Source of the DNA: Micromonospora sp. CCTCC AA 2012012
GTDB lineage: Bacteria > Actinomycetota > Actinomycetes > Mycobacteriales > Micromonosporaceae
Direction: 5' to 3'
Assembly: GCF_040499845.1 (NCBI RefSeq)
Contig: NZ_CP159342.1
Span: 868,001-932,000, forward strand
Length of the DNA stretch: 64,000 nucleotides
This document shows positions 39,403 to 55,324 of the stretch, piece by piece. The position numbers and the translations under genes were made by a program. The notes beneath the pieces were generated by a model. It saw nothing but the letters and a program-made list of their open reading frames with translations, had not been told where the DNA came from and made no database searches. Numbering within the stretch: position 1 is the first letter of the stretch; every line of letters starts with the position of its first letter.

Positions 39403-40352
39403 GTGGCCCGGACCGCGACCGCGAAGATCATTCCGCTACGCCCCGCCGACCCGACCGCAGCGGTCGAGTCCGCTCTCGCGGCGCTGCACCGGCACCTCGA
39501 CCGGTGCGCCCTGGCAGCCAACCCCGCCAAGGCATACCGGGCCCGCGCCCGCGCGTACGCCGCCTGGCTAGCCCAGCACGTCGGCGAGCACCCGGTCGCC
39601 TTCGTCGACCAAGTCGGCGCCGAGTCCGCCGTCCCCGCCTGGCGCCGGCACCTCATCGCCACCAAGGCCAGCCCGTCCACCGTCAACAAGGCCCTCGCCG
39701 CCGTCGACCTCCTCTACGCGGTCGGCGCCGGCTTGCGGCTGAAGATCAAGCGCGCCCGAGTGCCCCGCCCCGGCGAGCCCGAGGCGCTCACACCGAAGGA
39801 GCAAGGCGCGGTGGAACGTGCCGACGACCGCCGCGTCAACCGCGACGCCGCGATCATCGCCGTGCTGCTCTGCACCGGCGCGCGGGCGGAGGAGTGCGCC
39901 CGCCTCGATGTTGACGACCTCGCCCTCACCGCCCGTACCGGCACCATCCGCCTACACGGCAAGGGCGACGAAGTACGTCAGGTCCCAGTGCCGGCCCCGG
40001 CCCGCGATCGGCTCACTGCCTGGATCCGCCACCGCGGCGGCAAGCCGGGACCGCTGTGGACCGGGCAGCGCGGCTGGCTCACCACCTCCGGCATCACTCA
40101 AGTCGTCCTGACCGTCGGTTCCGACGCCAACCTTCCCGGTCTGCGTCCGCACCGCCCTCGTCACACTTACGCCACCCCACTCCGCCAAGGCGGAGCCGAC
40201 CCGCCCAGGTGCAAGCCCTGCTCGGCCACGCCTCTCTCGACACCACCGCCCGCTACTTCCGTGCCGGCGCTGCAGAGCAGGCGGCCGTGGTGGAACGAAT
40301 CTTCGACTGGGCACCGGTAACCGGTGCAGAGTCGGTTGGATCCCAGAAATAG
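39403..40352 (+). pseudogene. Tyrosine recombinase/integrase, C-terminal frameshift
   Basis: The first frame (GTG 39403) gives a SAM-like N-terminal core-binding domain (YRARARAYAAWLAQHVGEHP) and the catalytic domain with AIIAVLLCTGARAEECARLD (catalytic Arg), IRLHGKGDEVRQVPVP, and RPHRPRHTYATPLRQGGADP (HxxR box). The frame is lost at about 40205. The other frame continues with AQVQALLGHASLDTTARYF, carrying the nucleophilic Tyr. Adding one base (GACCCGGCCCAG instead of GACCCGCCCAG) joins the two. As it stands the protein of 305 aa lacks Tyr and is inactive. XerC/phage-type family. Confidence 0.85.
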
Positions 40353-40417: not shown

Positions 40418-41995
40418 ATGGCAGTGACCCAGCAGGAGATCGAAAACCGGCTGTGGGACGCCGCCGACGAGCTGCGCGTGGCGATGCCGGAAGCGCAATA
40501 CTCCTCGGTCGTCTTCCCGCTGATGTTCTGGAAGTACCTCTCGGACACCTGGGAGCACCACCACCAGGAGTTCCTGACCGACAATGAGGGCCTCCTGGAC
40601 GGCCTCTCCGCCGAGGAGGCCCACGAGATTGAATACCGCGACTATCAGTCGTTCGAGATCCCGTGCATCCACCCTGGCACAGTCCAGCAGCGTCGCGCCT
40701 CCTGGTCATCCATCCTCGCCACCATCACCCAGCCCGGCCTCGGCCAGCGTGTCCGCGCCTCCCTGCAAGCCATCGAGACGGCCAACCCTGACAAGTTCTC
40801 CCGCCTGTTCGGGTCCATGACTTGGACCTCCGAGGAGGTGCTGTCGGGAGAGGTGCTGGCGGCGGTCATGCAAGCGATGGACCGCACCCCGAAGATGCAC
40901 GAGGGCAATATGTCCCACGACGTGCTCGGTGGGGCGTACGAGTACCTGCTGAAGCGGTTCTCCGACGGGTCCGGCACCCGCGCCGGCCAGTTCTTCACCC
41001 CGCGCGAGGTCGTCGAGCTGATCGTCGAGGTCCTCGCCCCCAAGAACCGCGAGTCGGTGTACGACCCGACCTGCGGGTCGGGCGGCATGCTCATCGCCTC
41101 CGCGAACCTCCTGAAGGCCCACGGCGGGCGTGGCTACACGCTCCGCCTGTACGGGCAGGAGGCCGTAGCGGACACCGCGGGTGTGGCACGCATGAACCTC
41201 TTCATGCACAACCTCACCCAGTTCCAGATCGAGGTCGGCGACACCCTGAAGGACCCACGCTTCAAGAAGCCGGACGGGTCCCTCGCACAGTTCGATGTGA
41301 TCGTCGCCAACCCGCCCTACAGCCTGAAATGGAAGCCCTGGACCAAGGACCCGCGCGCCATCGGCGGTGTCGCCCCCCAGTCGTCGGCGGACTGGGCCTT
41401 CGTGCAGCACATGATCGCGTCGATGGACCCGAGGAAGGGACGCGCTGGCGTCGTCTTACCCCACGGCGTCCTCTTTCGCGGCGGCCAGGAAGCAGTCATC
41501 CGCCAGCGCGTGCTGGATGATGACCTGCTCGAAGCGGTCATCGGCCTGCCTGCCAACCTCTTCTACAGCACCCCTATTCCCACGGCGATCCTGGTGTTCC
41601 GTGCGCTCGGCACCAAGACCCCGGAGCGGCAGGACGGCGTGCTGTTCATCGACGCCTCCAAGCGATTCGCCAAGATCAAGAACCGCAACGTCCTCACCGC
41701 GACCGACATCGCGGACACAGTGACTGCTTACCGCTCGGACTTCGACGCCGACGGCAGCCCAGTAGACCCCGACGGTGATGGCGGCCTGGCAGCGCGCTTC
41801 GTGCCCACCGCGGAGATCGTGGCGAACGGGTACGACCTCAATATCGGGCGGTACATCAAGCAGGCCGCCGCTGAGAGCGAAGACCTTGGCACCCTCATCG
41901 ACGCCTACAACCTCGCCCGCGCCGAGCGGCAGAAGACCGAGGATCACATGCTCGCCGTGCTCGCCGACGCCGGAATCGAGGGCTTCGATGAGTGA
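40418..41995 (+). CDS. hsdM: Type I restriction-modification methyltransferase subunit M
   Basis: 525 aa. HsdM N-terminal helical domain at residues 5-150 (ENRLWDAADELRVAMPEAQY, FPLMFWKYLSD). The N6-adenine methylase core has AGQFFTPREVVELIVEVLAP, SAM motif DPTCGSGGMLIASANLL and catalytic motif FDVIVANPPYSLKWKPW (NPPY). The C-terminal coiled tail contacts HsdS. It transfers methyl from SAM to adenine in the recognition site and is also part of the restriction complex. The stop overlaps the HsdS start by 8 bases. It starts 66 bases after the broken recombinase. Confidence 0.95.
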   Translation: MAVTQQEIENRLWDAADELRVAMPEAQYSSVVFPLMFWKYLSDTWEHHHQEFLTDNEGLLDGLSAEEAHEIEYRDYQSFEIPCIHPGTVQQRRASWSSILATITQPGLGQRVRASLQAIETANPDKFSRLFGSMTWTSEEVLSGEVLAAVMQAMDRTPKMHEGNMSHDVLGGAYEYLLKRFSDGSGTRAGQFFTPREVVELIVEVLAPKNRESVYDPTCGSGGMLIASANLLKAHGGRGYTLRLYGQEAVADTAGVARMNLFMHNLTQFQIEVGDTLKDPRFKKPDGSLAQFDVIVANPPYSLKWKPWTKDPRAIGGVAPQSSADWAFVQHMIASMDPRKGRAGVVLPHGVLFRGGQEAVIRQRVLDDDLLEAVIGLPANLFYSTPIPTAILVFRALGTKTPERQDGVLFIDASKRFAKIKNRNVLTATDIADTVTAYRSDFDADGSPVDPDGDGGLAARFVPTAEIVANGYDLNIGRYIKQAAAESEDLGTLIDAYNLARAERQKTEDHMLAVLADAGIEGFDE

Positions 41996-43250
41996 CCCGA
42001 CGAGCAATGAATATGCCCCCCGGGTCCAGATGGCTTGGCTTCGGGCGCCTCTGGCACGGTTCCTCACGTTGAATGTGGAATCCGTGGACGTGGATCCGGG
42101 ACAGATGTACCCATCCGTGGGGGTACTGAACAGGGGGCGGGGGTTGCTCTACCGCGATCCTGTCGCAGGGAGCTCGACTTCCTACAAGCAGCTTAACCGG
42201 ATCCGCCCAGGCGTGCTCGTCTACAGTCGGCTCAAGGCGTTCGAGGGGGCGATTACCGTCACACCCAACGACCTGCCGGAATCGTTCGCTTCACAGGAGT
42301 TCCCCACCTTTACCTTCGCATCCGAGGCGGACCCTCACTTCTTTCGCATCCTCACCACGACACAGGGCATGTGGGATGCCCTTCAGAGGGCATCCAAGGG
42401 GATGGGTGGCAGGCGTGAGCGGGTGAAGCCCGCTGACTTCCTCAACATTGTCATGGACATTCCTCCGCTGCCGGTGCAGGAACGGATCGTCGAAGTCATT
42501 GGCGTGATCGACGACCAGATCGCGGCACTCGACAAAGAGGCCGAGACGCTGGAACGCATGTCGATGGCCATTGCCGAAGACTTGCTCTCTAACGAACGAA
42601 TCGTGGCGCTCGGAACGATGCTCGATGACATTCAAGGGGGCAGGAGTCCCCAGGCGAACACGAGGCCTCCGGGCGCTGACGAGGTTGGTGTGTTGAAGGT
42701 CAGCGCGGTCACGCCCTTCCGATTCCTGCCGGAAGAGTCCAAGGCCCTTCTACCTGGCACCTCCATGCCAAAGTCTGCGCTTGTTCAGCCCGGCGACGTA
42801 CTCATCACGAGAGCGAACACACCTTTGCGAGTCGGGGCCGTCGCGCGTGTCCCTGATGATGTTCGGAACGGTCTCTACCTCGCCGACAAGACTCTACGAC
42901 TCGTGCCGTCGCCAAAACTGGACCCCGATTTCCTCGTGGTGGCGATGGCGCTCAAGTCGGCGCGGACGCACCTCACCAGTTCGGCTACAGGCACCAGCGC
43001 CTCAATGTTCAACGTCAGCCAGGATCGCATTCGTGAGACGCCGATCCCGCTTCCTGAGCTAGACCGGCAGCAGGAGGTTTCCTCCGCCGTGCTGTCCGTT
43101 CGTGCGAACGCCGATGCGGCACGTGCTGAGGTCGCCAGTCTTCGTCGGGTTCGAGCCGGCCTACTGTCCGGGCTGCTGAACCGCACCATCAACATCGAGT
43201 CCGCCGAGCTTGGAGGTCTGATCCGTGGCGAAGGGCATTCGGGAGCGTGA
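41988..43250 (+). CDS. hsdS: Type I restriction-modification specificity subunit S
   Basis: 420 aa from ATG 41988. Two target-recognition domains (residues 10-165 and 215-365) are separated by conserved helices: PPLPVQERIVEVIGVIDDQI and IPLPELDRQQEVSSAVLSVR with a closing LRRVRAGLLSGLL. This is the classic two-TRD layout and implies a bipartite recognition sequence. The two TRDs differ, so the halves of the site differ. Codon usage is less GC-biased than in the chromosomal genes, consistent with transfer. Overlaps HsdM by 8 and HsdR by 26 bases. Confidence 0.93.
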   Translation: MSDPTSNEYAPRVQMAWLRAPLARFLTLNVESVDVDPGQMYPSVGVLNRGRGLLYRDPVAGSSTSYKQLNRIRPGVLVYSRLKAFEGAITVTPNDLPESFASQEFPTFTFASEADPHFFRILTTTQGMWDALQRASKGMGGRRERVKPADFLNIVMDIPPLPVQERIVEVIGVIDDQIAALDKEAETLERMSMAIAEDLLSNERIVALGTMLDDIQGGRSPQANTRPPGADEVGVLKVSAVTPFRFLPEESKALLPGTSMPKSALVQPGDVLITRANTPLRVGAVARVPDDVRNGLYLADKTLRLVPSPKLDPDFLVVAMALKSARTHLTSSATGTSASMFNVSQDRIRETPIPLPELDRQQEVSSAVLSVRANADAARAEVASLRRVRAGLLSGLLNRTINIESAELGGLIRGEGHSGA

Positions 43251-46200
43251 GTTCCAGAACCTGGTGATCCAGTGGTCCCTGCCGATGGGCTGGCGTTTCA
43301 CGGCGGGCAGGTCGCTGCCGCGTGAGACGACGCAGACGGTGGTCGCCGGCCAGCTGCGGGACGCCATTGTCCGGCTCAACCCAGAGCTGATCGACGGGTT
43401 CGACGTGGATGCAGTGGTCGAGGAGATCATCGCCACGGTCAACGCCGTGGAAGGCGGGCTGGTGCGGGCCAACGAGCAGGTTCTACACCTGCTGCGGGGG
43501 CATAAGGAGTTCCGGGACGCCAACGGCGTGTGGTACGCCTTGAAGATCATCGACGTCGAGCACCCGACCGCCAACACGCTGGTCGTCTCGGACGAGGTGA
43601 CCATCACTGTTCCCGGTAAGACCTCCCGACGCTTCGACCTCGTGTATTGGGTCAACGGGCTGCCCTTGGTGGTGGTCGAGGTGAAGTCGCCGACCGCGAA
43701 GTCCGGGTGGGTCGATGCTGCCCGCGAGATCAACGACGTGTACGCCGCTGAGTACCCGTGGTTCTTCACCCCCAACGTCTTCGCCGTCGCCTCGGACGGG
43801 ATGAAGCTGCGGTTCGGTGCCGCGGGCGCGCCCATGAACCTGTGGCAGCCGTTCCGGTCCACCGCTGACGACGAGAAGCTGTCCGCACAGGCCGACGTGC
43901 AGCGCTCGGTCGAGCTGCTGCTCAACCCTGCGACCGTCCTGGACATGCTCGCCAACTTCGCTCTGTTTGATACCTCCGGTGGTGGGGTGGACAAGAAGTA
44001 CCTGCCCCGCTACCCGCAGATGGAAGCCGCCCACCTGATTCACGAGCGAGTCGTAGCCGGCGGCCAGAAGGGCCTGATCTGGCACCACCAGGGCAGCGGG
44101 AAGACTCTGCTGATGGTGTTCGCCGCCTCGCTGCTGCTGGCCGACACCCGTACCGAGTCGCCCACGATCATCCTGCTCTCGGACCGTACCCAGCTCGTCC
44201 GGCAGACCTCCGGGGTGTTCACCTCGGCGATGGGGCACGCCTACTTCCACCAGCCCGCCACCGGCCAGGAGTTGCGTTCCCTGCTGGCCGACGACGTGCG
44301 TGGCGTCATCTCCACGACCGTTCACAAGTTCGCCGACGTCGGCAAGGACCTGTCGACCCGGAACAACATCATCGTGCTGGTCGACGAGGCGCACCGCACC
44401 CAAGCCGTCAGCCGGGACCGGGGGAGACTGCCCGGCAGGCCGACCCTGGCCGAGCAGATGCGCGCGGCACTGCCTAATGCGAAGTTCTTCGGGATGACCG
44501 GCACCCCTCTCAGGAACCTCGCCACCGACACCTTCGCCCTCTTCGGCGAGGAGACCGACCCGGGCAGGGTGCTGCACCGGTACTCCGTGTCGAGGTCTCT
44601 GCGTGACGAGGCGACCGTCCCGGTCATGCTGGACCCGCACCCGGTCTCGTTCGAGATGAACGACCAGGAGTTGCAGGCCGAGTTCGACCAGTTCGCCGAC
44701 GACTTCGACCTCGACGACCCCGACCGTGAGGCCCTGTCCCGCAAGTTCGGGCGCCTCACCTCGGTGTTCGCCAACCCCGACCGCATCCACACGGTCTGCC
44801 AGGACATCGTGGACCACTACCTGGCCGGCGCCTACCGCAACGGCCTTAAGGCCCAGGTTGTCGCCTACAACCGTGAACTGGCCGTGGCGTACACCGACAA
44901 GATCAACGAGCTGCTGGCTGGCTTCGAGGCCTCACAGGTGCTCGCCGAGGTCGGAAAACACGACCGGATCATCGCCGAGGTGAACATCTCCGTCTCGGAC
45001 TCCAAGGACGAAGATCCCTCCCTGCGGCCGTACCGCCTTTCGGAGGCCGAGGAGGAGGAACAGAAGCGGCGGTTCCTCACCCCGGACGACCCGCTGTGCT
45101 TCCTGGTGGTGACCGCGAAGCTGATGACGGGGTTCGACGCCCCCAACGAGGGCGTCCTCTACCTGGACAAGCCGCTGAAAGCCCACACCCTGTTCCAGAC
45201 GATCACCCGCCCGAACCGCACCTGGGTGTCCCCGACCGGGTTCGTGAAGACCTCCGGCGTGGTCGTGGACTACATCGGCCTGGCCGAAGAGGTGCAGCGG
45301 GCCGTCGTCGACCCCACCGCGGAGGGGACCGGCAAGGGTGGCGGCTTCCTCACCGATGTTTCCGAGCTGGTCGCCGAGTTCCGCACCACCTTCGCCCGCA
45401 TTGAAGACCTCCTCGCGGACGTCGACGACCTGGACCTCACGGTCCACGGATACGAGTCCGTGCGGGCCATCAACGTCTTCCTGGACACCAACCACGGTGC
45501 TGCCGAGGTGTTCTCCAAGGACTACCGGCTCCTGGCCCGCCTGTACCCGCTCATCAACACCGACAAGCGGGTCGCCAAGTACCGGGACGGCTTCGGGCTG
45601 TTCGGGTCCGTGTACACGACCCTGTTTAAAAAGTCCTCCGACGAGGAGAGGAAGGAACGGCTGGCCGAGCTGGGACCGATGGTTCTGGAGATCATCAACG
45701 CCCACGTCCACTCCTTCTCCGTGGTCGCCTCCCAGGAGGAAGCCCTCGTCCTGGACGCCCAGGGCATCACCATCCTCAAAGAGCTGATGTCCCTCGTCCG
45801 CCCCAAGCCCGGCAAGGACGACGGCGACGACAAGAAACGCCCGTCTGCGGCGGAGATCCTGGACCACATCAAGGCCGCCCTCGACAAGGGCGTCGAACCA
45901 GGGTCCGCGAAGTACACCGCCCTCGCTGAGCGGATCAGGCTGCTGCGGGACCGGATCATCCAGAACGCCCAGGACGCCCTGGAGTTTCTGGCCGAAGCGC
46001 TCCGGATCGCCCGCGCCATCGTCAACGCCGAGAAACACCCCGACGAAGCCGTCGTCGTGCTGGACGACGACCGTGTAGGCGTGCTGTCGCGGATCATCCA
46101 CGACCACGCGCCGTCCGGCCTCACAGTCACGGAGAGGAACCTGGCTGAGGAGATCGACCAGGTGGTCACCCGGACCCTCGCCCAATCATGGGACAACGCG

Positions 46201-46326
46201 GACGCTCGCAACCGAGGCGTCCGCCGCGCTACCGCTGCGGTCTTCCGCCGGTACATGTTGAAGCCGGTGGGGGAGCCGTATGACTCCACCGTCGCCTACA
46301 TCGAGGCCCACTACCTTGTTGACTGA
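43225..46326 (+). CDS. hsdR: Type I restriction endonuclease subunit R
   Basis: 1033 aa, full length. GTG start inside HsdS. The nuclease core is FDLVYWVNGLPLVVVEVKSP (D...ExK). The helicase has Walker A IWHHQGSGKTLLMVFAASLL, DEAH box VLVDEAHRTQ, motif III MTGTPL and a late motif LMTGFDAPNEGVLYLDKPLK with TRPNRTW. The C-terminal helical region (EERKERLAELGPMVLEIINA) binds the MTase core. It cleaves unmethylated foreign DNA after ATP-driven translocation. All three subunits are intact, so the system is probably active. Confidence 0.94.
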   Translation: MAKGIREREFQNLVIQWSLPMGWRFTAGRSLPRETTQTVVAGQLRDAIVRLNPELIDGFDVDAVVEEIIATVNAVEGGLVRANEQVLHLLRGHKEFRDANGVWYALKIIDVEHPTANTLVVSDEVTITVPGKTSRRFDLVYWVNGLPLVVVEVKSPTAKSGWVDAAREINDVYAAEYPWFFTPNVFAVASDGMKLRFGAAGAPMNLWQPFRSTADDEKLSAQADVQRSVELLLNPATVLDMLANFALFDTSGGGVDKKYLPRYPQMEAAHLIHERVVAGGQKGLIWHHQGSGKTLLMVFAASLLLADTRTESPTIILLSDRTQLVRQTSGVFTSAMGHAYFHQPATGQELRSLLADDVRGVISTTVHKFADVGKDLSTRNNIIVLVDEAHRTQAVSRDRGRLPGRPTLAEQMRAALPNAKFFGMTGTPLRNLATDTFALFGEETDPGRVLHRYSVSRSLRDEATVPVMLDPHPVSFEMNDQELQAEFDQFADDFDLDDPDREALSRKFGRLTSVFANPDRIHTVCQDIVDHYLAGAYRNGLKAQVVAYNRELAVAYTDKINELLAGFEASQVLAEVGKHDRIIAEVNISVSDSKDEDPSLRPYRLSEAEEEEQKRRFLTPDDPLCFLVVTAKLMTGFDAPNEGVLYLDKPLKAHTLFQTITRPNRTWVSPTGFVKTSGVVVDYIGLAEEVQRAVVDPTAEGTGKGGGFLTDVSELVAEFRTTFARIEDLLADVDDLDLTVHGYESVRAINVFLDTNHGAAEVFSKDYRLLARLYPLINTDKRVAKYRDGFGLFGSVYTTLFKKSSDEERKERLAELGPMVLEIINAHVHSFSVVASQEEALVLDAQGITILKELMSLVRPKPGKDDGDDKKRPSAAEILDHIKAALDKGVEPGSAKYTALAERIRLLRDRIIQNAQDALEFLAEALRIARAIVNAEKHPDEAVVVLDDDRVGVLSRIIHDHAPSGLTVTERNLAEEIDQVVTRTLAQSWDNADARNRGVRRATAAVFRRYMLKPVGEPYDSTVAYIEAHYLVD

Positions 46327-46765: not shown

Positions 46766-48994
46766 GTGCCTGAGGCTCCCATCCGCGGCGACGGCTTCAC
46801 CGTTCAGGGGCTGTTCAGTACCTTTCAGTTCCGGCTGGACTCGTTTCAGCGGGAGTACAGCTGGGGCCGCCAGGATGTTAAGGCATTGATCGACGATCTG
46901 TCGGGCCACTTCATCCGGCAGTGGTCACCGGGGCAAGAGCGCCGGGATGTCCGGCTCTTCGAGCCGTACTTCCTGGGCCCATTTGTCTACTATCGCGACG
47001 ATGAGTTCGCCGCGCTTGTGGACGGACAGCAGCGGATCACGACTCTGCATCTGCTTCTGGTGCATTTGCGTCGGCTCGCTGCCGAGGCTGATCGCCGGGA
47101 GTATGGCAACGATATAGCGGCCCTTGATCCGCTCATCGCTGGAACGTCCTATGGGGAGCGAGCGTACGCCATCGACGAGCCTGAGAGGGTTCCGCTGCTG
47201 GAGTCCCTCCTCGACGGCACGCTTTTCAGCGTTTCGGCCGAAGCCAGCCCGTCTGTGACCAACCTGTATGAGCGCAGTCAGGAGATCGACGAGCTGTTGC
47301 CGGAGACTGTCCGCGATGAGGCGCTGCCGCTATTCATCCACTGGCTTCTCAATCGGGTATGCCTAGTCGGTATCGACGCCGTCAACCGCCGTCAGGGTTG
47401 GGCGATCTTCGAGACGATGAACGACCGCGGTGTGCAGCTGGGTCCCGCCGACCTGCTCAAGAGCTTCCTCTTGCGGCGGGCCGACAACGTGCACAACCGG
47501 GCACGGCTCGGCGAGACCTGGCGCTCGATGCTGACGAGGCTGCATGCTGTCGGCACCCAGGCTACAACGCGGTTCCTCCAGGCTCTTCTCGTGGGGAAGT
47601 ACGCGATCGACCAATCCGACGTGACCGACATTGCTATTTCCTTCCACGGCTGGGTCCAGTTGAACGCCGAAAAGCGGCTTGGCCTCATGCATCCTTCGGA
47701 ATTCGCGCGCTTCATTGAGCGCGACCTCCCGGCCTTCTCCCGTCGCTTCGCAACTCTCGCCGCCGCCTCCAGGCGGCCCGATCAGGGTCTTGATCCGGTG
47801 TTCTACAACGCGGTCAACGAGATTGACCAGATGCCCTTCCTGCTGGCGACGCTTGGACCCGACGATACCGATGCGCAATTCCGGGACAAGGCTCGGCTTG
47901 TGGCGGCGTTCCTGGATCTAACCTACGTGCAACGGTTGATCAACAATGGGGACGACCGCCCAGACGCGGCGTTGCCTGAGTTTTTGGACCTGCTCCGTGA
48001 TCTACGCGGCTGTCGCGACATCGAACAGATCAAGAAGCTGCTCGGCGACCGAACGGCAGGCCTCGACACGTCGTTCTCAGTGGTACGGCAGTACGGGCTC
48101 CGGCCAGATAACCGGGCGCAGGTCAGGTATCTGTTGGCTCGGATGACCGCGTTCGTGGAGTTGGAAAGTGGACGCCCGGACCAGATTGCCCGGTACCTGG
48201 AGAAGTCCGAACCGTATGAGATCGAGCACATTTGGGCGAACAAATTTGAGAGGTATCAGGCGGAAGTTAAGACGGAGGACAAGTTTCGGCTTCAGCGCAA
48301 TCGTCTAGGGGCGCTCCTGCTGCTCCAGAAGTCGCACAATGCGAGCTATCAGGCTGCGCCGTATGAGGAAAAGGTCGAGTGGTACCGCGGGCAGAACCAC
48401 CTTGCCGCGTCTCTGCACAAGGTCAACCATCAACGCAACAGGCCGTTCACCGACGGCGTCGTCAAAAAGTATGGCCTGGAGAAGCTTTTCCGATCGTTCG
48501 ACAAGTTTGACATGAGCGCCATCGAGACACGACAGCTTCTCTACCAGCGGCTGTGCGAGCTGATCTGGGATCCACAACGGCTGGGCTTCGTCGTGCCGCC
48601 GAAGGCTTCGTTGCCCGAGCGGGCCACCGCCCGGGCGGTGGCCCACCGGACCCGCGCTCACTATGGTGCGATCACCGTCGCCCGCTTGGTCGGGGCGGAG
48701 GCGCTCAGCGTGGGCGAGGAGTTGACCCTGGTCTACAAGCAAGTTCGCCACACCGCTCGAATCAGTCTGGGTGGCCAGATTGAGCTGGCCACTGGCGAGC
48801 GGTTTGATTCGCCCTCGCCAGCAGGCACGGCCGTGACCGGTAAGCGGACGATGAACGGCTGGAGCTACTGGAAGGTCGACCGGGCCGGCAAGGCAGTTAC
48901 CTTGTTCGACGTGCGTTCAGACGCTCTCGAGCGCGGCCTCCTCGAAACAGAGGAGCGGCATCCCGAGCAACCAAGCTCCACCGGTCTTTTCTGA
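46766..48994 (+). CDS. DUF262/DUF1524 (GmrSD-like) protein with C-terminal RAMA-like domain
   Basis: 742 aa from GTG 46766. The N-terminal DUF262 (ParB-like/GmrS) domain has FQFRLDSFQREYSWGRQDVK and the NTPase motif ALVDGQQRITTLHLLLVHLR (D86-G-Q-Q-R90). GWAIFETMNDRGVQLGPADL follows. The DUF1524 HNH-type nuclease (GmrD-like) region has PYEIEHIWANKFERYQ and RLQRNRLGALLLLQKSHNAS. The last 110 residues (SVGEELTLVYKQVRHTARIS, then FDSPSPAGTAVTG and NGWSYWKV) match the RAMA/DUF4357 pattern. Known relatives are type IV enzymes cutting modified DNA. The RAMA part could read the modification. Lower GC than flanking genes. Confidence 0.85.
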   Translation: MPEAPIRGDGFTVQGLFSTFQFRLDSFQREYSWGRQDVKALIDDLSGHFIRQWSPGQERRDVRLFEPYFLGPFVYYRDDEFAALVDGQQRITTLHLLLVHLRRLAAEADRREYGNDIAALDPLIAGTSYGERAYAIDEPERVPLLESLLDGTLFSVSAEASPSVTNLYERSQEIDELLPETVRDEALPLFIHWLLNRVCLVGIDAVNRRQGWAIFETMNDRGVQLGPADLLKSFLLRRADNVHNRARLGETWRSMLTRLHAVGTQATTRFLQALLVGKYAIDQSDVTDIAISFHGWVQLNAEKRLGLMHPSEFARFIERDLPAFSRRFATLAAASRRPDQGLDPVFYNAVNEIDQMPFLLATLGPDDTDAQFRDKARLVAAFLDLTYVQRLINNGDDRPDAALPEFLDLLRDLRGCRDIEQIKKLLGDRTAGLDTSFSVVRQYGLRPDNRAQVRYLLARMTAFVELESGRPDQIARYLEKSEPYEIEHIWANKFERYQAEVKTEDKFRLQRNRLGALLLLQKSHNASYQAAPYEEKVEWYRGQNHLAASLHKVNHQRNRPFTDGVVKKYGLEKLFRSFDKFDMSAIETRQLLYQRLCELIWDPQRLGFVVPPKASLPERATARAVAHRTRAHYGAITVARLVGAEALSVGEELTLVYKQVRHTARISLGGQIELATGERFDSPSPAGTAVTGKRTMNGWSYWKVDRAGKAVTLFDVRSDALERGLLETEERHPEQPSSTGLF

Positions 48995-49299: not shown

Positions 49300-49746
49300 T
49301 CACGAGGCGTCATCGGCGCGGCCGTGCCGCCTCAGCCACGCCCGCACCGTACCCATGAGCCGAGGGCCTTTGCCCACCACAGCACCCCCGGGATCCTGAT
49401 GTTGCCGACCTGGAGCCGTTGACCCAACGGCACTGGCCGAGCGATGCCGGTCGGGGCCATCGTGAGAACGGTCCTTAGCCCACTCAATCCGGTTGCGCCG
49501 GATCCAGTAGTGCGATCGGCACGGGTAGTTCCAGTTGCCCACCGAAGGGTGCAGCGTCACGGACACCCCGTCGAAGGTGAGGCTCCACCCCTCCCTGCTG
49601 ATCGGGGTGACGATCTCACTGCTGCAGCCGCACGGGCACAGGTGCAGCGCTGTGGCGTAGCGGATCGAGACGTACAGCACGCCGTCGTCGAGGACGTCGG
49701 GGGCCGAGTCGACGAAGCGGTGCTCGATGTTGGTCCGTCGGGTCAT
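49300..49746 (-). CDS. DUF6527 family protein (Ubl-system partner)
   Basis: 148 aa. The DUF6527 pattern is clear: VLYVSIRYATALHLCPCGCS, PISREGWSLTFDGVSVTLHP, SVGNWNYPCRSHYWIRRNR. Cys/His groups in LCPCGC and PCRSH probably bind a metal. The last 60 residues are basic and low complexity, beyond the domain. Its start overlaps the E1-like gene stop by 4 bases. DUF6527 proteins are found with ThiF-type E1 and multiubiquitin genes in bacteria; their role is not known to me and could be processing or effector. Third and last gene of the cassette. Confidence 0.78.
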   Translation of the reverse strand: MTRRTNIEHRFVDSAPDVLDDGVLYVSIRYATALHLCPCGCSSEIVTPISREGWSLTFDGVSVTLHPSVGNWNYPCRSHYWIRRNRIEWAKDRSHDGPDRHRSASAVGSTAPGRQHQDPGGAVVGKGPRLMGTVRAWLRRHGRADDAS

Positions 49747-50921
49747 GTCTGGTCATCACCGACCAGGCAGTTGGTGGTGATCGTGTAGACGCTGTGGTGC
49801 TCGTGCTCGATATCGGCGTAGAAGCCGCACCACTTTTTCCACCTGATCACCGCGTAGGTGGCGTTCAAGGCGTTGAGCTCGGCGATCTGGATGTTGGTGC
49901 CGTAGTCGTCGTCGCCGTCGTCCTCGAACGGGATCCGCCGCTGGTCCCAGATGTGGTCCCGCTTCTGCGGGGTGCTCGTGGTGGTCCGCAGGTGCCCGGC
50001 GATCATGTCATCGACGGTGTAGAGGCCCATGCCGACGTCGACGAACGCGACCCCGGCCGCCTCCATCGCCTTGATCAGGTACTGCTTGGGTTCGCCCTGG
50101 TCCATGCAGAGGAACACGAACGACATCGACTGCAACTCGTCGGCGTTCGTCTCGTGGAGAAAGTAGGGGTGGGCGACGATGCCGCGGCGCATCGCGCCGT
50201 ACATTTCGGCGTAGTGGTAAACCTTCTTGGGCCGCTGCCGCAGCTGATCGAGCGAGGGCGCGCCGGGGGCCCGGAAGGCGTTGTGCTGCAACAAATCGTC
50301 ACCGTCGAACAGGTGGATCTCCCGAACTGGCGCCTTGGCGATTAGGTCCAGCACGTAGGAGCCGCTGCCGCCGAGCCCGACGACCGCAACCCGGGGCAGG
50401 GCCAGCTTCGCGTTGATGGCCGCGATCCCGGCGCGGCTGCTGGCCGTGTCGAGGTAGCGGAAGACCGACTCCGACGCGTCGGTCTCCACGACCCGGAACG
50501 TTCGGGCGGTCACCGACGGGTCGACCGCGGCCGCGTGCGTGGCCAGGAGGGCCACGTAGGTCGTGATCTTCGCGTAGTAGTCCGGGTAGCCGGCGTCGGG
50601 CTTGTTGGAGAACATGAAGTTCACCGTCAGCCCTGGGATGATCTGCTCCTGGACCGGGCTGTGGATCACCTTGCTGAGCGGCTGTCCGTTCGCGTCGCAG
50701 GGCTGCTCGCCGGCGAAGTGGACCACGTGGGTCTCCGGTGTGATCGTGGTGTCGCCGGCGAGGCTGAGCTTGGACACCAGGGTGCCGAGCTTGACCTCCC
50801 GCTGCGCGTTCAGGTACGGGACGTGGGCGACCACGAGGTGACCGTGCTCGACGGTCACCTCGTAGCCCTCGTCACGCAACCGGCGCAGGTCGGCGCTACG
50901 AGCGACGAGTGCGAGTGACAT
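49743..50921 (-). CDS. ThiF/E1-like adenylyltransferase of bacterial ubiquitin-like cassette
   Basis: 392 aa from ATG 50921. A longer frame upstream (to 51032) only overlaps the Ubl gene. The N-terminal 150 residues (DUF6791-type or E2-like region) contain HVVHFAGEQPCDANGQPLSK. The Rossmann E1 domain begins PRVAVVGLGGSGSYVLDLIA, with HLFDGDDLLQHNAFRAPGAP (adenylation site Asp and Asn/Arg) and SFVFLCMDQGEPKQYL. Candidate catalytic Cys are in the N-terminal HFAGEQPC and near the end (KWCGFYAD, TTNCLVGD). It would activate the Ubl C-terminus with ATP. Overlaps Ubl by 26 bases and DUF6527 by 4. Confidence 0.82.
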   Translation of the reverse strand: MSLALVARSADLRRLRDEGYEVTVEHGHLVVAHVPYLNAQREVKLGTLVSKLSLAGDTTITPETHVVHFAGEQPCDANGQPLSKVIHSPVQEQIIPGLTVNFMFSNKPDAGYPDYYAKITTYVALLATHAAAVDPSVTARTFRVVETDASESVFRYLDTASSRAGIAAINAKLALPRVAVVGLGGSGSYVLDLIAKAPVREIHLFDGDDLLQHNAFRAPGAPSLDQLRQRPKKVYHYAEMYGAMRRGIVAHPYFLHETNADELQSMSFVFLCMDQGEPKQYLIKAMEAAGVAFVDVGMGLYTVDDMIAGHLRTTTSTPQKRDHIWDQRRIPFEDDGDDDYGTNIQIAELNALNATYAVIRWKKWCGFYADIEHEHHSVYTITTNCLVGDDQT

Positions 50922-51174
50922 CGAAAGCGGTTCCGTCCTTGATGGTGACCGTGCCGCCCTCGCTGAGGTTGCCGTCACGCTGTGGTGCCACCGCGCGGTG
51001 GTAGGTGACCGTGAAGACCACCTCGGTGTCATGGGCGCCCGGGAACGCGAGGGCGACGACCTGGGCGAAGGTGAGCTCGCGGTCGTCGACGGTCTTCTGG
51101 CGGGTGTTGATGATGATCGTGTAGCGGCGCTGGACCCGCTGGTCCTGGTCCGCGATGCCGATGTCCGACATCAT
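50896..51174 (-). CDS. Multiubiquitin-type ubiquitin-like protein
   Basis: 92 aa with AAGGAGGAC directly before ATG 51174. The beta-grasp fold is readable: RRYTIIINTRQKTVDDRELT (strands 1-2), FAQVVALAFPGAHDTEVVFT (helix and strand 3), VTYHRAVAPQRDGNLSEGGT, and KDGTAFDVTRTRRS. This matches the multiubiquitin family, here as a single domain. The C-terminus TRTRRS has no Gly-Gly, so it is not a classic di-glycine modifier; the family often ends in a similar TRTDxS. First gene of the Ubl-E1-DUF6527 operon. Confidence 0.8.
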   Translation of the reverse strand: MMSDIGIADQDQRVQRRYTIIINTRQKTVDDRELTFAQVVALAFPGAHDTEVVFTVTYHRAVAPQRDGNLSEGGTVTIKDGTAFDVTRTRRS

Positions 51175-51506: not shown

Positions 51507-51869
51507 ATGACGTGGCCCGGCCAGAGGGTGTGGCGGCCGCCTGTCGGCCTGGTCGCGGTGCTACCCCGCGACTACTACAACCCGCGCGACCCGCACGCCC
51601 GCAGACCGACGGTGGTCGTGCGGGTCCTGCCCGCGGACCGCGCGTGCCTGGTCGTGACCCGGACCAGCGACACCATGGTCGCGCACTCCAAGGACATCTG
51701 GCACGACAAAGATCCAGAGCTGCTCTGCGACCGCCAGGGCTGGTGGCAGCCCCGGCGTGTCCACCGGGTCGACTTCGGTGCCTACGACGACGAGGACACC
51801 AAACCACACGTGATCATGAGCGGGGATCTTCTCGACCGCATCCTCGCCGCCTACCAGGAGTTTTCATGA
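51507..51869 (+). CDS. Hypothetical protein, possibly PemK/MazF-like fold
   Basis: 120 aa. The start region GLVAVLPRDYYNPRDPHARR followed by PTVVVRVLPADRACLVVTRT resembles the first strands of PemK/MazF-type proteins. The rest (RQGWWQPRRVHRVDFGAYDD and SGDLLDRILAAYQEF) is compatible with a small beta-barrel plus helix. The match is by eye and weak. It is coupled (ATGA) to the sigma-like gene. A toxin role would need an antitoxin, and none is obvious. Confidence 0.5.
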   Translation: MTWPGQRVWRPPVGLVAVLPRDYYNPRDPHARRPTVVVRVLPADRACLVVTRTSDTMVAHSKDIWHDKDPELLCDRQGWWQPRRVHRVDFGAYDDEDTKPHVIMSGDLLDRILAAYQEFS

Positions 51870-52828
51870 GCGCATGGGAGGAGTTGCAGCGCGACGGCGT
51901 CTTCGGCACCGAGGCGACCGCCGAGCTGTACCGGTGCGTCCGCGCGGTCGCCCGGGCCGGCAACTTCCCGCCGCCGACCGGTTACCACCAGTGGACCTTG
52001 GACGCGATCGAGGAGACCGCGCACGAAGTGTTCGCCGATGCGAAGGGCCCACAGCGTCTGGTCGAACTCGCGGTGAAGGCGCACGACGACACGAGCTTCC
52101 GCCGGCTGCTGGAGCAGGTCGTCCGCAACTTCCTGCGGGATCGGGCCCGGGCCACGACCAAGGGCCGGCTGATCCGGCGGCTGCGGGAGGTCCTAGACGG
52201 TGATTCCCGGTTCCGGTTCGTTCCCGATGGGCGGCCCGGCGCCGGCCGCAACGTGGAACTGGCCGACGGGACCACACCCGGAGTCTGGAACGGCCGACTC
52301 ACCGACCTAGTCACCGCGGCCTACAAGGTGACCGACGTGACGATCGTGCGGTGGCGGCCTGATGCCCGCCGGGAGTCGCCGGTGGCCGACGCTGACAGCT
52401 TAGCCAACGTCTGCGAGGCGACGCTGCGGGCTGCAGGAGCGTCGCTCGCGCTGGCGGACCTAGCCGACGTGGTCGCCGCCCGGTTCGCCGTCGGGCCGAC
52501 CCCGGTGGTGACTCCGGTCGACGACATCGACCCCTGGTTGCCCGGCGTCGACACCATCGAACTGGCCCAGGCCGAGGCCGAGATCCGCGCCGGCGCCGAT
52601 CGGCTGCTCGCCCAGCTCACCAAGCGGGAGCAGTTAGTGCTCGCCTACCTGGACCAGCCTGTCCGGCAGATCGCCGATCGCACCGGCCTGGGCAAAAGCG
52701 TCGCCGCGCAGGTTGCCGCCAGGGTCAAGGAGATCGCCGGTCAGATACTCGGCGCCGAACCGCGTCGCGAGGACATGCTGAGCCTGGCGCAGTCGCTGGC
52801 CACCCCGCGTCCGCATGACGAGCATTAG
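51866..52828 (+). CDS. Sigma-factor-like protein with C-terminal region-4-type HTH
   Basis: 320 aa from ATG 51866, 4 bases inside the preceding gene. The last 60 residues, LLAQLTKREQLVLAYLDQPV and RQIADRTGLGKSVAAQVAAR, are a sigma-70 region-4-like HTH. The N-terminal part has a basic helix region (RRLLEQVVRNFLRDRARATT and KGRLIRRLREVL) where region 2 would lie, but no clear -10 recognition motif. The middle section (SLANVCEATLRAAGASLALA, LADVVAARFAVG) is an extra helical domain. It could be a diverged ECF sigma factor or an anti-activator. Followed by a zinc-motif protein, as sigma/anti-sigma pairs are. Confidence 0.65.
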   Translation: MSAWEELQRDGVFGTEATAELYRCVRAVARAGNFPPPTGYHQWTLDAIEETAHEVFADAKGPQRLVELAVKAHDDTSFRRLLEQVVRNFLRDRARATTKGRLIRRLREVLDGDSRFRFVPDGRPGAGRNVELADGTTPGVWNGRLTDLVTAAYKVTDVTIVRWRPDARRESPVADADSLANVCEATLRAAGASLALADLADVVAARFAVGPTPVVTPVDDIDPWLPGVDTIELAQAEAEIRAGADRLLAQLTKREQLVLAYLDQPVRQIADRTGLGKSVAAQVAARVKEIAGQILGAEPRREDMLSLAQSLATPRPHDEH

Positions 52829-52857: not shown

Positions 52858-53052
52858 ATGGCGCAAAGAAGCGCCGGCCGCGGCCGGACAGACCACGACG
52901 GTGCGCCGTTTCAACTACGTACACAGGTCAGATGGAGAAGGCATGAGAGTGCGGGAGATGACCTGCGGGAGGGTAGAGGCATGGTGACCCATCAGCCCAT
53001 TCGCTCACGACTGCGGCGGACCGTCGCCAGCCCGACTGGTGTACGGCGATGA
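52858..53052 (+). CDS. Possible small basic peptide gene
   Basis: 64 codons from ATG 52858. The stop overlaps the next start by 4 bases (ATGA), which is the only positive sign. The product is Arg-rich and low complexity and no family is recognised. It may be a chance frame in the 220-base gap or an upstream coupling ORF for the zinc-motif gene, which has no clear ribosome site of its own. Confidence 0.22.
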   Translation: MAQRSAGRGRTDHDGAPFQLRTQVRWRRHESAGDDLREGRGMVTHQPIRSRLRRTVASPTGVRR

Positions 53053-54302
53053 CCGGCATTCCGTCGAACGACCACGGCCCGGTGTGGCACGTCTTCGCCG
53101 ACGCCGACTTGAATCCTCCGGTGGCAGTCGCCGGAGGGCACCTGCTCGATGCAGATCTGGAAACATCTGGGCAGGGCGACCGCAAGCACTTGGCCGAATG
53201 CGGCTGGTGCCAGCAGCGCCAGCAGGCTGCACGGCGGCACGGTGAGGACCTCGATGACGAGGCGTTCCTGCGCGCGGCACGGCAGCGTGCTCTCGCTGGC
53301 GGTGCGGCCGCCCTAGCGTCGGTCACCCGGCTGTCCCCCGAGGTGCACGCCCTGACCGTCGACACCGGCGTCCGGAAGGACGTCATGGTGGGCCAGTTGT
53401 GGCGGCTGCGGTGGCAGGACGTCACCGAACTTGCGTTGGTCGTCGACGTCGATCGCTGGTGGGTGACTGTCGCTCCGGTCACCACCGATGTGAGCGCCGC
53501 CGATGAGTTCAGCCTCATCCTGCCCACGACCGCCAGCGTGCTGAATACGGAATTCGCGGTCTGCTTCAGCCTGGAAAGCACGGTTCCGCTGTTCGTGTTC
53601 GATCGCGAGATCACACCGGCGAGCCGTCCGATGCTCGATGAGGCGAAAGCCGCCGCCCAAATTCCCCCACCCGAGACCATCCGGGACGTGTGGCGGGCAT
53701 GGCGCCGCGGCGTCGCCGGCCCCGCCCATCTGACCTATGGCACCTCGGTCGACGAGGCAGACCTGGATCGGCGCGAGCTGCGCAACGCCGTCGCCGCCGG
53801 ATTCACCCAGCTCGCTAGCGCCGCCGCCTGCGTCCCGGGTGACCCGGTCGGGGACGTAGTGCCCCTGCTGCAACAGGTCAAGAGCCTGCGCCTGCCGCCG
53901 GACCAGCTCACCGCACGCTCCGGCCTCGACATGAACGTCTTCCTGAGGATCAAGAAAGGCGGCCGCGTCACCCGCAGCGAAGCAGCACAGCTGGCACAGC
54001 TGCTCAATACCGACACCCGCACCGTTCTGGACGCGAACCCACCGTTCGACGACGCATTGATCGCCGAGGTCAGCCGGCCCACACATCGCGCGTCCCTGCG
54101 GTTGCTGGCCGGGACACACAGCTCCGAAGACGAACAACGCTGGGAGATGGCCGAGACGGTGGCACCACAGGCTGCGCGGGCCGTCAGCACGGCGAAACCG
54201 TCCGACAGCGGTGCCGGACGCACCGACTGGGCGGCGAAGGTGTCGGTCTATCTTCAGCAGCGCCTTACCGCGCTCGGTGGCTCCCTTTCGGACCGGCCAT
54301 GA
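53049..54302 (+). CDS. Zinc-motif (anti-sigma-like) and XRE-like HTH protein
   Basis: 417 aa. At residues 47-54, HLAECGWC gives H-x3-C-x2-C, the pattern of zinc-binding anti-sigma (ZAS) domains. The centre is beta-rich (LWRLRWQDVTELALVVDVDR, WWVTVAPVTTDVSAADEFSL). Residues 285-340 (LPPDQLTARSGLDMNVFLRI, KKGGRVTRSEAAQLAQLLNT) resemble an XRE/HigA-type HTH. The gene overlaps the ImmA/IrrE gene by 4 bases, the standard repressor-protease pair arrangement. Thus it may be both a zinc-dependent inhibitor of the sigma-like protein and a DNA binder cleaved by the protease (inference). Confidence 0.65.
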   Translation: MTGIPSNDHGPVWHVFADADLNPPVAVAGGHLLDADLETSGQGDRKHLAECGWCQQRQQAARRHGEDLDDEAFLRAARQRALAGGAAALASVTRLSPEVHALTVDTGVRKDVMVGQLWRLRWQDVTELALVVDVDRWWVTVAPVTTDVSAADEFSLILPTTASVLNTEFAVCFSLESTVPLFVFDREITPASRPMLDEAKAAAQIPPPETIRDVWRAWRRGVAGPAHLTYGTSVDEADLDRRELRNAVAAGFTQLASAAACVPGDPVGDVVPLLQQVKSLRLPPDQLTARSGLDMNVFLRIKKGGRVTRSEAAQLAQLLNTDTRTVLDANPPFDDALIAEVSRPTHRASLRLLAGTHSSEDEQRWEMAETVAPQAARAVSTAKPSDSGAGRTDWAAKVSVYLQQRLTALGGSLSDRP

Positions 54303-55324
54303 CACGTACCAAACAAGCCCTGATCGATGAACTGGTGCCGGCGATGCTGGCACACCTGGCCAGCCTCGGCGTCGACGGCCGCAAATTGGCCGCCGACCCG
54401 GCCGCAGTAATCGTGACCATCGACGGCATTGTCCTGGACTGGGTCGAGCCCGCCGCACTCGGCAGCGGCTGCTCGGTCGCGGCGCTCTACAGCGGAGGGG
54501 AAACCCCGCCACGAATTGCGGTGTTGCGCGACACGTCGGAAGGCCGGCGCAACTTCTCCTTAATACACGAGTTCGGCCACCACCTATGTCCGAGCGTGAC
54601 AGCGGTCGCTGCCGCCCTGTGGGAGCTTCCTGACGGCGAAGAAGGACCGTTCGAGGAAGACCTGGTCGACGCATTCGCCGCAGCAGTCCTACTGCCCACC
54701 GACATTGTCAGCCGGATCTTTGCTGACGGTGTCACCGCGGCGTCGGTGATCCGCCTGTGGCAGAGCACGACAGCATCGCGGGAGGCGTGCTGCGTCGCCG
54801 CCGCACACCGCCTGCCCGCACCGGGCTACGTCATGCTGGTCGAGCCGAACAGCCGTAGCCAGTTCGCCGCCCGCCACGGCGACGTCCTGCCGATCGCCCG
54901 CGGCAGTGTCCAGTCCGCCACCCGGCTGCAATCCGCGGTGCGCGGCGGTACCGCCCGAGGCGTCGACCGGCCGACCTTCCGCAGCGGCGTCGCCGGCCCG
55001 CAGATGTACCTCGACGCCCAGGGGACCGATGGTTACACCATCGCCGTGTGGGTCACCGACTCACCGGACTGGCCCTCCCTGACCGCGCCTCTGGCCACCG
55101 GCCCGGTCGGCCACGACGGGCACTGCGCGGACTGCGGCGAGGACTTCACGTCGTGGAAGAGGCCCTGCGGTACGTGCGGCGAACCGTTGTGTCCGCAGTG
55201 TGGGGCCTGCGAATGCGCGGCCGGAGGCCAGCGCCCCATCGCCAACCGGCTGTGTACGAGCTGCTTCCTCTCCCTGCCGCTAACGGCCTTCCTCGGCGAC
55301 TCGACCACCTGCAACCAGCACTAA
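54299..55324 (+). CDS. ImmA/IrrE-family metallopeptidase with Cys-rich C-terminal zinc domain
   Basis: 341 aa. The zinc-protease helix is RRNFSLIHEFGHHLCPSV (HExxH at residues 90-94). FEEDLVDAFAAAVLLPTDIV, residues about 114-133, is the second family landmark carrying the third ligand. VTAASVIRLWQSTTASREAC follows. The C-terminal 75 residues add CADCGEDFTSW, CGTCGEPLCPQCGACEC and NRLCTSC, at least two zinc knuckles not usual in the family. ImmA/IrrE proteases cleave an XRE repressor after a stress signal, and the upstream gene is the obvious target. The Cys-rich tail may sense redox, metal or DNA. Confidence 0.83.
   Translation: MTRTKQALIDELVPAMLAHLASLGVDGRKLAADPAAVIVTIDGIVLDWVEPAALGSGCSVAALYSGGETPPRIAVLRDTSEGRRNFSLIHEFGHHLCPSVTAVAAALWELPDGEEGPFEEDLVDAFAAAVLLPTDIVSRIFADGVTAASVIRLWQSTTASREACCVAAAHRLPAPGYVMLVEPNSRSQFAARHGDVLPIARGSVQSATRLQSAVRGGTARGVDRPTFRSGVAGPQMYLDAQGTDGYTIAVWVTDSPDWPSLTAPLATGPVGHDGHCADCGEDFTSWKRPCGTCGEPLCPQCGACECAAGGQRPIANRLCTSCFLSLPLTAFLGDSTTCNQH

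Follow-up and report, generated by a model that had tools for sequence, protein, structure and literature searches.

A stretch of 64,000 nucleotides from Micromonospora sp. CCTCC AA 2012012 (contig NZ_CP159342.1, positions 868,001 to 932,000; hereafter the window) encodes a ubiquitin-like protein (Ubl) that ends in Ser rather than Gly-Gly, together with an E1-like enzyme and a protein of the DUF6527 family. On balance, these genes probably form a horizontally spread three-gene Ubl modification cassette, a JAB-less variant of operon type 6e with an extra N-terminal domain on its E1, sister to the Bub systems. The cassette contains a fixed 26-base overlap in which the last residues of the Ubl and the first residues of the E1 are encoded in two frames, with the E1 gene held to particular synonymous codons across distantly related genomes.

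The cassette

The genes lie head to tail on the minus strand in the order Ubl-E1-DUF6527 (51174-49300), with the following features.

50896..51174, minus strand: Ubl, 92 amino acids (aa), a single Multi_ubiq beta-grasp domain with the C terminus V-T-R-T-R-R-S (PF14452, E 1.7e-18, residues 18-89; PDB 9cd2_A, E 3.8e-6, residues 17-92).
50896..50921, minus strand: 26-base overlap, the Ubl tail VTRTRRS-stop and the E1 start MSLALVAR in two frames.
49743..50921, minus strand: E1-like enzyme, 392 aa, N-terminal DUF6791 (residues 10-159; PF20590, E 2.6e-61) and ThiF adenylation domain (PF00899, E 6.6e-10).
49743..49746, minus strand: 4-base overlap of the E1 stop and the DUF6527 start.
49300..49746, minus strand: DUF6527 protein, 148 aa, with H35/C37/C41/C76/S78/H79/Y80 (PF20137, E 3.3e-25).

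A preliminary description of this DNA had proposed three overlapping genes of these kinds, and coordinates and Pfam matches agree with it. All three proteins exceed the curated Pfam cut-offs (67 bits for the Ubl against Multi_ubiq PF14452, where the cut-off is 24.5); the beta-grasp assignment is borne out by the Multi_ubiq and 9cd2_A matches, and that of the E1-like enzyme by the ThiF match and the E1 fold of its predicted model. The terminal TRTRRS reads as claimed, and neither a JAB protease nor a separate E2 gene, both described as missing, occurs among the open reading frames (ORFs) and Pfam matches of the cassette. The E1 is taken to start at an ATG within the Ubl gene; the longer ORF of the mechanical list (429 aa) differs only in using an ATG further upstream. 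The Ubl gene opens ATGATG, and because an AAGGAGG ends 2 bases 5' of the first ATG and 5 of the second, the second may be the true start (91 aa).

A Ser-ended tail in a dual-coding overlap

A profile of 24 E1s retrieved 499 relatives from the genome collection, and the counts that follow refer to the best 80 loci of these 499. The preliminary description had noted the missing Gly-Gly for this locus. It is no peculiarity of the locus: Ser is the last Ubl residue in all 80 tails (window included), mostly as V-T-x-T-D/N-K/R-S, and when the E1s are clustered at 80% identity the 67 remaining representatives all have a Ser-ended Ubl, with Thr (65) or Ser (2) at position -4. Judged by these tails, loci of this operon type as a rule lack Gly-Gly. 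Ser ends, but not the long overlap, also occur in another Multi_ubiq operon type of the window's order, in which the Ubl is followed by a clear E2-like gene (DDNS or DENS in 9 of 9 loci, two of them from one genome). Separately, a Multi_ubiq gene type ending in FKRG, that is, in a C-terminal Gly, is found in loci L100, L103 and L105.

When the E1 start codon closest to the first profile position is used, 76 of 79 loci have a Ubl-E1 overlap of exactly 26 bases, and the other three (L020, L024 and L025), where a TTG stands one codon later, have one of 23 bases. An overlap of 26 bases is likewise found in 14 of 14 additional loci that contain both genes and score at least 100 bits for the E1 (L083 and L107 share one genome, the window copy L084 is excluded, and the contig of L113 ends before the Ubl), and the overlap holds down to 38% E1 identity (L115). 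An overlap of this length places the Ubl tail wholly within the E1 gene, in a register in which every Ubl codon starts on the wobble base of an E1 codon.

This register allows the constraint from the Ubl frame to be read at positions where the E1 protein is indifferent. Expected counts were taken from how often each gene itself uses the synonyms that agree in their first two bases. Every one of the 80 E1 genes has wobble A at codon 4 (expected 23), T at codon 7 (expected 25) and T at codon 8 (expected 21), and 66 of 80 have A at codon 6 (expected 11), 58 of them as the Ile codon ATA, through which a Lys becomes readable in the Ubl frame. None of the other E1 codon columns (n=376) is at least 95% uniform, the mean being 47% and the maximum 85%, in a sample with a mean pairwise E1 identity of 53% and a G+C content of 34-68%. 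Kinship alone does not explain the fixed wobbles, since other wobble sites of the same genes are scrambled. By these codon statistics, synonymous codon choice in the E1 gene is given up to preserve the Ubl tail, and the encoded Ubl end is selected as protein sequence. The overlap probably also couples translation of the Ubl and the E1.

Spread and co-occurrence of the three families

The DUF6527 profile matches all 80 E1 loci and the Ubl profile 79, the remaining locus (L035) lacking a Ubl because its contig starts within the E1. Wherever all three occur their order is Ubl-E1-DUF6527, with the DUF6527 ORF of L074 lying ~2 kb downstream rather than abutting. By these counts the co-occurrence is far beyond chance, and the neighbourhood that the preliminary description had proposed to seek in other genomes is conserved across phyla. 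Loci are labelled Actinobacteria, Cyanobacteria, Proteobacteria, Bacteroidetes, Acidobacteria, Nitrospirae, Planctomycetes, Verrucomicrobia, Elusimicrobia, Chloroflexi and others, and two records with the cassette (L030, L031) are archaeal; the labels are as recorded, and as many loci are metagenome-assembled genomes single assignments may be wrong.

Relatives of the E1 are present in 115 of 72,556 plasmid records and in no record of the phage collection. The closest E1 among the matches listed, 93% identical, is that of Micromonospora chersina, and Micromonospora phytophila (L076) has the cassette with an E1 54% identical. A search of 61 genomes, 36 congeners included, detected DUF6791 in the window's own genome and in no other, yet M. 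chersina and M. phytophila carry the cassette, so that it appears sporadic in the genus. The window's genome has one DUF6527 match. In L089, from a genome of the window's order, a transposase-like ORF lies between the Ubl and the E1 of a cassette of the same type.

The E1-like enzyme and the DUF6527 protein

In sequence the adenylation residues of the E1 are intact, and in a fold search its model matches the E1 fold of BubCD, mainly over residues 145-392; BubCD, the nearest structure, we take to be the E1 of a conjugation pathway. The model of DUF6791 has helices at residues 2-8 and 10-17 and strands at 21-25, 28-37, 43-51 and 66-70, an arrangement recalling the UBC order, and PADLOC E1-E2 matches are confined to residues 136-218. 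A candidate Cys had been placed in this N-terminal domain by the preliminary description. That part stands, C75 lying there within a P-C motif and position 75 being Cys in 77 of 80 E1s; an essential role does not, since Ser, His or Arg replaces it in some relatives, and C75 is probably no obligatory thioester Cys. Pfam listings for the 24 E1s scanned contain no JAB. In an E1 of the L092 type a JAB-like HxH..SxxD motif can be picked out by eye, for which Pfam gives nothing even at E values as high as 1.

In the DUF6527 protein, H35, C37, C41, C76, S78, H79 and Y80 are conserved in 81 of 81 sequences, giving the ligand pattern C37-x3-C41-x34-C76-x2-H79. Its residues 1-90 are modelled as all-beta with a mean predicted local distance difference test score (pLDDT) of 86-98 per ten residues, falling below 65 beyond. 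Two lineages with an altered DUF6527 C39 both have Ser at E1 position 75.

Relation to known systems

Operon type 6e as described by Iyer et al. 2006 (PMC1779556) combines a Ubl of one to three repeats with an E1 that carries JAB, replaced in some bacteria by an uncharacterised N-terminal domain X, and with a metal-binding protein of signature C-x(3)-C-x(35-38)-H-x(2)-C. The window likewise has a Ubl, here a single domain within the one to three repeats, beside an E1-like gene; its DUF6791 occupies the N-terminal place with no JAB in Pfam, a likeness to domain X drawn from the description; and DUF6527 (C-x3-C-x34-C-x2-H) has a close spacing with the last two ligands swapped. The window differs in having no RWD/E2-like gene. 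The cassette fits the domain-X variant of type 6e as there described, and the view of the preliminary description that such operons were known from comparative genomics agrees with a class on record since 2006 (PMC1779556). The window locus is an ordinary member of this class with a single Ubl domain. The portion of that description at hand mentions neither the overlap nor a Ser tail, and no description of a fixed dual-coding junction with a selected Ser end was found in the sources as far as available, although earlier publication is possible.

The Bub systems are reportedly described by Ye et al. 2026 and Gong et al. 2025. Judging by entry titles, the Bub structures (PDB 9ea4, 9ea5, 9ea8, 9eae, 9eav) include a separate BubB, which the window lacks. 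Compared with Bub operons of the Citrobacter type, the window has no gene between Ubl and E1, a DUF6527 gene is added, and the N-terminal half of its E1 is made up of DUF6791. The corresponding part of BubCD is presumably JAB-type. Assignment to the Citrobacter type was rejected on these grounds, there being no BubB gene and DUF6791 standing at the JAB-type position. The preliminary description had linked related systems to phage defence; for the Bub pathways the authors of PMC13373217 state that such a role has not been demonstrated. The last part of PDB 9cd2 (ZDHYS365 multi-ubiquitin domain protein) aligns to the end of the window Ubl (VTQTDKS against VTRTRRS), although that protein is multi-domain with 222 aa, whereas the Ubl has one domain and 92 aa. 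Cap2 is an E1 with an N-terminal domain, an E2-E1 fusion encoded next to a CD-NTase, and Bil systems comprise a Ubl, an E2 and an E1 together with a JAB peptidase. The cassette is not a Bil system, as it contains neither an E2 nor a JAB gene, nor is its E1 a Cap2 of type II CBASS (cyclic oligonucleotide-based antiphage signalling system), as no CD-NTase is among the matches listed for ten ORFs scanned.

Proposed mechanism and alternatives

In the modification cassette proposed here, the E1 would adenylate the Ubl in its translated, untrimmed form, at the carboxylate of its C-terminal Ser. The fused DUF6791, the first half of which has a putatively E2/RWD-like order of helix and four strands, would receive or position the activated Ubl, which would then pass to an amine or hydroxyl group on a target. 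DUF6527 may replace the JAB peptidase of sister operons as a metal-bound partner, perhaps a deconjugase, and under stress the cassette is probably turned on by the helix-turn-helix (HTH) and M78 genes upstream of it.

Several results count against this scheme. Among 27 Multi_ubiq loci of the window's order, seven belong to neither operon type described above, and six of these lack a Ser end, three ending in FKRG; the seventh, L104, ends in AAS. Three of the seven (L100, L103 and L106) weakly match an E2-like profile (E 1e-4 to 0.008). A profile comparison of DUF6791 with a BubB-like set was negative (probability 0.2%, from a shallow 10-row alignment), and Pfam found no E2 family in the 24 E1s scanned. 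C75 is the only near-invariant Cys of the E1 and is not universal, and a thioester relay through it is doubtful on the alignment. The DUF6527 model has no clear match to solved structures, so that deconjugase is a role suggested by gene content, and its putative substitution for JAB draws on the sister operons and on the L092-type motif, unconfirmed in Pfam.

A fuller version, in which the Ser-ended Ubl is conjugated as encoded, DUF6527 is a new metal-dependent deconjugase acting via a linkage through E1 residue 75, and the 26-base overlap is a dual-coding lock across bacteria and archaea, must be considered speculative, a possibility to be entertained with some doubt; the joint changes E1 C75S and DUF6527 C39D/S would follow if DUF6527 acts on such a linkage.

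Rather unlikely is a Ubl that is not conjugated, its activated tail serving sulfur transfer, small-molecule synthesis (MccB, PaaA) or a Ubl-Ubl polymer, with DUF6527 an acceptor or scaffold and not a protease. None of the ten largest flanking ORF clusters looks, by eye, like sulfur or biosynthesis genes, and the E1 is nearest to BubCD, presumably a conjugation-pathway enzyme. That DUF6527 is instead a processing peptidase removing the Ubl end before activation, the Ser tail being a precursor, is improbable, although the JAB of sister operons is presumably a peptidase, the L092-type E1 has its JAB-like motif by eye and six candidate DUF6527 residues (H35, C37, C41, C76, S78, H79) are retained in 81 of 81; within the tail, conservation is highest at the last and -4 residues, which E1 codon choice maintains, and this would be odd for a discarded piece unless they were the recognition site. 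That the tail is conserved solely as a side effect of how the E1 begins, without any function in the Ubl, is scarcely credible: the tail does lie wholly in the overlap under the constraint of E1 M-S-x-x-L-I-x-R, but wobbles free in E1 are fixed (T at codon 7, A at codon 6), and Ser ends recur in operons without the overlap.

Genomic neighbourhood

The genes upstream of the cassette and the block on its other side are as follows.

51507..51869, plus strand: 120-aa ORF, divergent, no Pfam match, first of the upstream block; companion status is suggested by position only.
51866..52828, plus strand: 320-aa ORF without a Pfam match, by eye resembling a sigma factor; related ORFs precede the cassette in L065, L071 and L122.
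53049..54302, plus strand: 417-aa ORF, HTH-like stretch by eye, no Pfam match.
54299..55324, plus strand: M78/IrrE-like peptidase, CapP-like (PF06114, E 1.8e-6; PADLOC capP, E 1.1e-9).
39403-40320: phage-type integrase.
40418-41995: HsdM, type I restriction.
41775-43250: HsdS, type I restriction.
43225-46326: HsdR, type I restriction.
46766-48994: GmrSD-type protein with GmrSD_N, GmrSD_C and RAMA, between HsdR and the cassette (PADLOC HEC-06, E 9e-33).

With its integrase, type I restriction genes and GmrSD/RAMA gene, the setting is, by gene content, a defence island. In three of 89 other loci (L065, L071 and L122) relatives of both the 320-aa and M78 genes immediately precede the cassette, in the same direction as the cassette there and divergent in the window. 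The 120-aa ORF has no tblastn match in the 89 other loci, and the 417-aa ORF none at 1e-4 in 89 loci, the latter weakly resembling the same-position ORF of L065 in a pairwise comparison only (26.6% over 94 aa, E 8e-5).

Under single-linkage clustering, which may join some unrelated ORFs, the largest flanking family consists of XRE-type HTH and M78-type proteins (49 of 80 loci), mostly divergent and upstream. An HExxH-bearing member occurs in 45 of 80 loci. In 70 loci more than 2.5 kb precede the Ubl end, and 42 of these have such a member ending upstream at a distance within 3.5 kb, on the opposite strand in 37 of the 42. The arrangement resembles CapH+CapP pairs; of 544 Bub operons, 219 are reported to occur together with CapW or CapH+CapP (PMC13373217). 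A small ORF of ~84 aa (GGWDVKRGGA..DPFPPKG) lies near the cassette in 15 of 80 loci, upstream in 13 (for example L045:4739-4990). Its product we presume to be DUF2188-like.

Implications

DUF6527 is a family without known function, with a predicted core that has no clear counterpart among solved structures. Ubls without a Gly end form a conserved class and are not degenerate copies. Since the E1 uses unfavoured codons to retain the last Ubl residues, the tail must matter, and a Ser-ended Ubl calls for chemistry unlike that of textbook ubiquitin. A dual-coding overlap fixed at 26 bases across about a dozen bacterial phyla and archaea, taxa being as recorded, would be unusually stable.
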